Shown here: one piece after another, positions 19,241 to 50,400 of the stretch | How positions within the stretch are numbered: the stretch's first letter is position 1 | Layout: each line of letters starts with the position of its first letter | NCBI GenBank assembly: GCA_018303625.1 | Contig: JAGVXV010000012.1 | Location: 1-52,036 of the forward strand | Source of the DNA: Candidatus Woesearchaeota archaeon | Lineage (GTDB): Archaea; Nanobdellota; Nanobdellia; Woesearchaeales; GW2011-AR4 | Direction: 5' to 3' | Length of the DNA stretch: 52,036 nucleotides | Made by a program: the position numbers and the translations under genes | The notes under the pieces: model-generated | The model's database searches: none | What the model was told of the DNA's origin: nothing | The model's input: the letters and a program-made list of their open reading frames with translations, nothing else

Positions 19241-19354
19241 CGCCGCGGCTGGGATTTTCACCCAGAAAGTTATCCTTTATAGGATTTGAACCCAGATGCT
19301 GTTTCCAGCAGAAGGGTCTGAACCTTCCGCTCCACCGGATTGAGCGACCGCGGC
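19241..19354 (-). tRNA. tRNA-Leu(CAG) with a T-loop intron
   Basis: Read from 19354 leftward: acceptor GCCGCGG pairs with CCGCGGC; D-stem GCTC/GAGC; anticodon stem GAAGG/CCTTC with 7-nt loop TTCAGAC, anticodon CAG; long variable arm TGCTG-GAAA-CAGCA, as in leucine tRNAs. The T-arm is complete only if 30 nt (19255-19284) are removed, giving CTGGG-TTCAAAT-CCCAG. No CCA is encoded. The discriminator base (19241) reads G, whereas archaeal leucine tRNAs normally have A. The mature length would be 84 nt before CCA. A decayed copy of the 5' half lies about 36 nt upstream. Confidence 0.93.
19255..19284 (-). other. Noncanonical tRNA intron, 30 nt, between tRNA positions 59 and 60
   Basis: The precursor folds into a full bulge-helix-bulge motif. 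The exon helix is CTGGG:CCCAG, followed by a 3-nt bulge AAT, a central 4-bp helix TTCA:TGAA and a second 3-nt bulge AAT. The intron helix is CCTA:TGGG, extended after one mismatch by AAA:TTT and closed by the loop GGATAAC. Cutting each bulge after its second base and joining gives the consensus T-loop TTCAAAT. A 6-nt repeat (AAATCC) at both ends means sequence alone allows several boundaries, but the bulge positions fix this one. Confidence 0.88.
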
Positions 19355-19360
19355 ATAAAG

Positions 19361-19381
19361 TTTATATATAAGTTAATTATA
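19361..19381 (-). promoter_or_regulatory. Probable tRNA-Leu promoter (TATA region)
   Basis: AT-rich sequence upstream of the tRNA 5' end. On the minus strand it reads TATAATTA (19374-19381) and then TTATATATAAA. The first element is centred about 24-26 bp before the mature 5' end, the usual archaeal TATA spacing. The second seems too close to be the main box. Confidence 0.4.
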
Positions 19382-19390
19382 GTATGTCTT

Positions 19391-19425
19391 GGGTCTGAAC
19401 CTTCTGTTCTGCCGGTTTAGCGGCC
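19391..19425 (-). pseudogene. Decayed copy of the tRNA-Leu 5' half
   Basis: On the minus strand these 35 bases align with the D-arm through anticodon-loop part of the tRNA-Leu gene. They include an identical run GAAGGTTCAGACCC and matching CGCT, AA and CCGG blocks. About 28 of 36 aligned positions agree. The acceptor stem, variable arm and 3' half are missing, and after the match the sequence becomes the AT-rich tRNA promoter. It looks like a remnant of a tandem duplication. A split-tRNA half is unlikely because no paired leader or acceptor strand is present. Confidence 0.5.
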
Positions 19426-19490
19426 TTTTTTCTTTTTTAATTAAGAACTAGTTTATAAATCTCACGCGGGCAAATGTCCAGTGTCCAGTG

Positions 19491-50189: not shown

Positions 50190-50400
50190 ATATGTCGGAA
50201 ATATACCATCAGTTTGTAACTGATGGACGTAGCCCTATAACATGAGTAATTATGGTATATTTCCGAGCATGCTCAAAAACCACTGGACAACTTTGCGATA
50301 AGCAAACATGCTATCAGTCCATCGGAAATCAAAGATTTTCGAGTGTGATCGAAAATGCAAAGCATTTATCGACATTTGACTGGTGGTTTTTGACATGACC
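50190..50400 (+). ncRNA. Candidate structured RNA with long perfect stems
   Basis: A gap between two plus-strand genes with unusually strong pairing. A 15-bp perfect stem is TCGGAAATATACCAT (50195-50209) with ATGGTATATTTCCGA (50252-50266). A competing hairpin is CCATCAGTT (50206-50214) with AACTGATGG (50218-50226), which shares bases with the first, so a switch is possible. An 11-bp stem, TCAAAAACCAC (50273-50283) with GTGGTTTTTGA (50383-50393), encloses TTTGC/GCAAA (50292-50306) and ATTTTCGA (50335-50342) with TCGAAAAT (50349-50356). No ORF. Strand and ends are uncertain. It could instead be a mobile element remnant. Confidence 0.45.

Follow-up and report, generated by a model that had tools for sequence, protein, structure and literature searches.

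A woesearchaeal serine-type tRNA gene with a leucine anticodon and a predicted antisense RNA partner, a candidate toxin-antitoxin pair

What does an interrupted tRNA gene with the anticodon CAG encode, and why does a partial copy of it lie directly upstream? We addressed this question for a locus in Candidatus Woesearchaeota archaeon (assembly GCA_018303625.1, contig JAGVXV010000012.1), in a stretch of 52,036 nucleotides referred to here as the window. The features of the locus are listed in Table 1. A first-pass annotation had described the gene as a tRNA-Leu(CAG) whose T-loop holds a 30-nt intron within a bulge-helix-bulge (BHB), and the intron boundaries agree exactly with ours. The minus strand from 19354 to 19241 begins with GCCGCGG and ends with CCGCGGCG. 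Excision of the intron, TCCTATAAAGGATAACTTTCTGGGTGAAAA (19284 to 19255), leaves an 84-nt type II cloverleaf. The BHB is built from CTGGG:CCCAG / AAT / TTCA:TGAA / AAT plus an inner CC:GG helix, and the fold of the precursor (z = -4.9) exceeds chance.

Table 1. Features of the tRNA locus and its upstream region in the window
Feature	Position	Strand	Basis or detail
Serine-type tRNA gene, anticodon CAG	19241..19354	-	114-nt precursor; exons 19354-19285 and 19254-19241; G73 = 19241
T-loop intron, 30 nt, 3-4-3 bulge-helix-bulge at flanks	19255..19284	-	central helix UA/UG/CG in relatives
Anticodon CAG (would read CUG)	19318..19320	-	cloverleaf position
Partial copy of the tRNA's D-arm and anticodon arm, oriented as the tRNA	19391..19425	-	local alignment score 45 vs <=29 in 100 shuffles
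Predicted antisense RNA, ~44 nt	19388..19431	+	ends inferred from TATA box and T-run; wobble-preserving differences; duplex energy
TATA box of antisense RNA, BRE-like CATAAAG ahead	19361..19370	+	sequence; class I box spacing
Putative antisense terminator, hairpin GCCG/CGGC then TTTTTTCTTTTTT	19411..19438	+	sequence; T-run after complement in 74/74 elements
Presumed sense-promoter TATA box TTTATAAA	19452..19459	-	sequence; same arrangement in many relatives
Two overlapping CACTGGACA motifs, upstream of sense promoter	19475..19490	-	3 in window vs 0.09 expected

Relatives of the gene preserve this structure. Across 24 of them, pairing is kept in 95.5% of cells, whereas slid versions of the same structure reach 39-48%. 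At the first position of the central helix, 13 relatives have a UA pair, 6 have UG and 4 have CG, and 1 is unpaired. On the opposite strand, the common UG pair would read as a C-A mismatch, which identifies the tRNA strand as the structured RNA. The 3-4-3 motif at the splice sites, with these compensatory changes, is that of an archaeal BHB tRNA intron. Pair 31-39 is mismatched in 14 of the 24 relatives. The gene scores 129.6 bits with the R1 model. The suspicion that standard scans may overlook it was justified: ARAGORN called no tRNA at the gene, no Rfam family matched it at the gathering threshold, and the Rfam tRNA model gave 19.5 bits against a cut-off of 29 bits.

The same T-loop intron design (TTCA:TGAA) occurs in the genome's tRNA genes for Ala (L016), Val-TAC (L100), Ser-GCT (L105) and Ser-GGA (L107). 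Interrupted tRNAs are numerous in this genome. A Pro gene (L103), read short of its end, has a similar-looking T-loop intron, and L101 (G000:C14:57951-58023), probably a tRNA-Asn, has insertions in the D-loop and at the anticodon. A T-loop intron is also present in the Ser-GCT gene L052 of another family. The introns resemble the non-canonical BHB tRNA introns of Thermoproteales and others (PMC4033280, PMC8450103) in being flanked by a BHB outside the anticodon loop. They differ in belonging to Woesearchaeota, in sharing one T-loop site among several tRNAs, in having a canonical BHB, and in occurring beside one detected EndA gene.

That EndA gene (PF01974) encodes 192 aa with N and C domains, and its nearest matches are the catalytic (alpha) subunit of N. 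equitans and EndA of M. jannaschii. The first-pass annotation had reasoned that an endonuclease of broad specificity must be present. This does not follow, because the motif is canonical, and canonical BHB motifs are cleaved by alpha4 enzymes (PMC4033280). For ligation, it had named an RtcB/archease pair at the window start. An RtcB-like ORF, named from sequence alone, lies there at 233-1690, and no archease-sized ORF is found beside it.

The assignment to leucine did not hold. In place of the A73 and Leu-type body of a tRNA-Leu, the spliced body has G73, a GCCGCGG/CCGCGGC acceptor and a D-arm resembling those of the genome's Ser tRNAs. Its identity is 72% with Ser-CGA and 65% with Ser-GCT, compared with 62% with the genome's Leu-CAG. 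The same gene in relatives carries the anticodon GAA, GAG, GAC, GAT, AAG or CAG (Phe, Leu, Ile, Val). We therefore assign the gene to the serine type despite the small identity margin over Leu, as G73 and the anticodons of the relatives decide. The long variable arm, G73 and the Ser-type acceptor and D-arm are those of a tRNA-Ser; a serine anticodon is present neither here nor in any of 74 relatives that bear a copy. The genuine Ser tRNAs of the genome, in a tRNA inventory compiled from searches, have the anticodons GCT, CGA, GGA and TGA (read by eye). The inventory also holds a separate tRNA-Leu(CAG), with discriminator A73, at C36:15795-15928 (L017). A second intact tRNA-Leu(CAG), with the window's gene silent, was one of the two outcomes that the first-pass annotation had named as fatal to its reading; the second gene accounts for half of that. 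From the identity elements we infer that the gene encodes a serine-tRNA body with a leucine anticodon, which SerRS would charge.

The upstream copy had been overlooked by the first-pass annotation. On the plus strand of this region, a TATA box, the complement of the anticodon arm, a hairpin and T-runs follow one another in this order. From the presumed sense promoter, the transcript would start near 19431, so that the precursor leader would carry the copy. Elements with this layout, a copy of the D-arm plus the anticodon arm, are referred to as class I. In class I, the median distance from the centre of the TATA box to the tRNA 5' end is 13 nt, versus 28 nt in genuine Ser genes, and the tRNA is therefore unlikely to be transcribed from that box. 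The predicted duplex of the window's antisense RNA with its own tRNA has an energy of -49.7 kcal/mol, versus -23 to -29 kcal/mol with five other tRNAs of the genome. In 21 of the 32 class I pairs compared, no predicted duplex is stronger than that with the own tRNA (mean -45.5 versus -27.6 kcal/mol). We also considered whether the fragment is part of a split tRNA. This was ruled out, as the adjoining tRNA is complete and the copy has no acceptor strand. A copy with meaning on the sense strand only is disfavoured by the TATA spacing and by the asymmetry of wobble changes described below.

If the antisense RNA pairs with the tRNA, the copy should differ from the tRNA by G-to-A or T-to-C changes, which keep a G-U pair, and not by A-to-G or C-to-T changes. 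The G-U-preserving changes outnumber the opposite ones by 149 to 33 in class I, by 36 to 14 in class II and by 105 to 32 in other families. Counted per element, 64 favour G-U-preserving changes, 3 go against them and 7 are ties (sign p=7e-16, a value that overstates independence given shared ancestry). Simple drift to A/T would yield about as many C-to-T as G-to-A changes, and such parity is absent. The terminator hairpin accounts for part of the signal, but not for the changes in the anticodon arm, where class I has 52 G-U-preserving changes and 5 opposite ones. Pairing of these serine-type tRNAs with their own antisense RNA is thus well supported by comparative analysis, and the predicted pairing corresponds to the antitoxin RNA of a type VIII toxin-antitoxin system, which is able to pair with its toxin RNA.

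Relatives were gathered by BLAST, by an anticodon-blind 3'-end pattern in GTDB genomes and by a covariance model, and the resulting loci fall into many families. The 3'-end pattern returned 30 loci, all with Woesearchaeota titles, and those read were all genes with non-Ser anticodons. The copy test was passed by 74 elements, the weakest of which score 30-33 and overlap the range of Ser genes. As a control, 31 of 33 genuine Ser genes score <=26, which is the background, and the other two score 30 and 49.5; the latter is probably L149, which has another Ser-like tRNA upstream. Anticodons with A35, for Leu, Phe, Ile and Val codons, are found in 72 of the 74, and the remaining 2 read Asp codons; A35 genes served as the training set for the model of the wider search, which may inflate this share, whereas the 3'-end pattern is blind to the anticodon. 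Genome G309 holds the most copy-bearing genes, 8 among the 9 read, and no copy lies near the ninth (L201). Class II elements have complements of the D-loop and variable arm, and several of their antisense RNAs contain a GGGTTC..GAACCC hairpin. One locus type, with a TsaC-like gene, keeps the same neighbours in several genomes.

Spread beyond the order was considered and rejected. Of four matches at E<=1e-12 (L267, L270, L274 and L282), the three read (L270, L274 and L282) carry Ser anticodons. Viral origin was likewise not favoured, as IMG/VR contigs contained no exact match to the 3'-end pattern.

Several loci depart from the common layout. A further group of serine-like tRNAs (L191-L194, L209-L215, L218, L222, L224, L226 and L229) has T-loop introns, mostly GCCGGCG acceptors and hydrophobic, in some cases GTC, anticodons. 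No upstream or antisense copy was found near the four loci of this group with long flanks. Together with L201, this indicates that an antisense partner is not always needed. At the G026 locus L063 (C19) the copy is kept and the neighbouring tRNA is deleted, and at the G003 locus L066 (C24) copy and tRNA have apparently recombined into one broken gene. Both remnants fit the loss of a harmful RNA, without proving it. Long hairpin insertions lie between the V-arm and T-arm in L037, L041, L061, L062 and L066, in the acceptor of L039 and in the T-loop of L038 and L042. Several share TGCGAGTGAGC...CTCGCTCACAA, and they are perhaps extra introns or tiny mobile elements. In another family, L049 (G056:C11:38395-38430) has two near-identical stretches, GTCGCATACACAAACTTCCCTTCGGTCGTTTGGTCGCGACCTCTAGATAA, upstream of an intron-less tRNA-Ser(GGA).

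The motif CACTGGACA ahead of the presumed sense promoter recurs at 50281-50289 in the window. Genome-wide there are 25 occurrences of the motif and 0 of its reversed pattern, and further genomes of the family show enrichment as well. ORFs downstream of it include a tyrosine recombinase, a Cas4-like nuclease, MCM, a PIN protein whose MazE-like partner scores below the Pfam cut-off, and a TsaC-like ORF, the last named by its sequence; some sites lie away from promoters. These contexts hint at a possible regulon and a stress response.

Starting from the cloverleaf, the intron, G73, the copy, the conserved antisense pairing and the promoter and terminator signals read in the DNA, the explanation that we favour, with belief and doubt in about equal measure, is a serine-charged and probably harmful missense tRNA under a dedicated antisense RNA, resembling a type VIII toxin-antitoxin system. 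Transcription, splicing, serylation, toxicity and neutralisation would then proceed as follows. RNA 1 would be the serine-type tRNA with CAG, from which EndA would excise the T-loop intron before the exons are ligated. The spliced RNA would be charged with serine, as expected because SerRS ignores the anticodon, and would insert serine at CUG (Leu) codons. Anticodon-independent serine charging has been reported in yeast and mammalian cells, and a tRNA-Ser with a Phe anticodon cut the growth rate of yeast by 50% despite an attenuating mutation (PMC6827378). In 31 window ORFs, 234 of the 11,196 codons are CTG, so a free tRNA-Ser(CAG) would be costly and is presumably off in normal growth. A matched antisense RNA would be its simplest control. 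RNA 2, short and running in the opposite direction from a promoter between copy and tRNA, would bind RNA 1 by base pairing at its D-loop and anticodon arm, and would match the copy in the precursor leader perfectly. This would block the folding, splicing or function of RNA 1. Should the CACTGGACA sense promoter be turned up, or the antisense RNA fail, the tRNA would escape and hydrophobic codons would be read as serine.

The same two RNAs could instead serve regulated adaptive mistranslation, a controlled burst of serine-for-hydrophobic substitution in stress as opposed to arrest, defence or addiction. Several different anticodons within one genome would suit such a role, as would CACTGGACA ahead of other genes including the Cas4-like nuclease, MCM and the PIN protein. 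We nevertheless consider it unlikely, since few substitutions should do more damage than serine in a hydrophobic core, and the presence of multiple modules, each with its matched antisense RNA, is more suggestive of toxin-antitoxin copies. Modules might also spread and persist as selfish or addictive tRNA-derived elements that bring no benefit and whose harm is kept down by the antisense RNA. Several loci per genome, in different contexts and many families, and the orphan and recombined remnants (L063, L066) speak for this, but the modules read contain no transposase and the locus type with the TsaC-like gene has constant neighbours, which leaves it quite unlikely.

Slightly less probable again is a role outside translation, in which the tRNA shape would act as a decoy or regulator, an anticodon nuclease being one conceivable target, and would be tuned by the antisense RNA. 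The frequent 31-39 mismatch and some large hairpin insertions would be in keeping with it, yet conservation extends to the acceptor, D-T loop contacts, splicing motif and G73, as in a translated tRNA. The original reading, an ordinary tRNA-Leu(CAG) with a T-loop intron and a copy that is a chance remnant, accounts for the anticodon CAG and the long variable arm. We regard it as highly improbable given G73, the Ser-like body, the separate Leu-CAG, the Phe, Ile and Val anticodons at the same gene in relatives and the conservation of matched copies.

The window's tRNA has partial counterparts among known RNAs. By its sequence features, it resembles the allo-tRNAs (Mukai et al. 2017, reviewed in PMC7609411), which the review describes as having serine identity with anticodons of other amino acids. 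According to the same review, allo-tRNAs are bacterial, with an 8/4 or 9/3 acceptor branch and many anticodon types; it describes no antisense RNA, and speculatively ties some forms to transposons or toxin-antitoxin systems (PMC7609411). The window's type is archaeal, with a 7/5 branch, a T-loop intron, nearly always A35 and a matched antisense gene. Candida has a tRNA-Ser(CAG), a serine tRNA that reads CUG, but there the code change is constitutive and has no antisense partner. Type VIII pairs such as CreTA likewise consist of an RNA toxin acting on translation and controlled by an adjacent RNA; however, CreT sequesters a rare tRNA and CreA requires Cascade (PMC12737573), whereas at this locus the tRNA itself would be the toxin, paired directly by the presumed antitoxin. 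The split tRNAs of Nanoarchaeum (PMC4033280) are similar in that a separate gene piece resembles a 5' tRNA half. There, a BHB mediates the joining in trans of the two separate halves; here the adjoining tRNA is complete, the piece has no acceptor strand and the conserved signal is antisense. In the open-licence PubMed Central literature, we found no description of tRNAs with antisense genes of their own, and such pairs are undescribed in that literature on Woesearchaeota T-loop introns, archaeal seryl chimeric tRNAs and tRNA-antisense toxin-antitoxin systems.

We tentatively propose, with doubt somewhat outweighing belief, a new kind of toxin-antitoxin system, with a serine-charged tRNA acting on hydrophobic codons as the toxin and a dedicated antisense RNA as the antitoxin, present in many Woesearchaeota families with several modules per cell, at least some of them sharing CACTGGACA control. 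If this is true, cells retain genes that would misread their own genetic code, each silenced by a matched antisense RNA, and this would be a new means of halting or stressing a cell. The tRNA gene counts of these genomes would change as well, because annotation by anticodon would name these genes Leu, Phe, Ile or Val tRNAs. Regulated natural missense tRNAs would become a directly testable idea with clear predictions.
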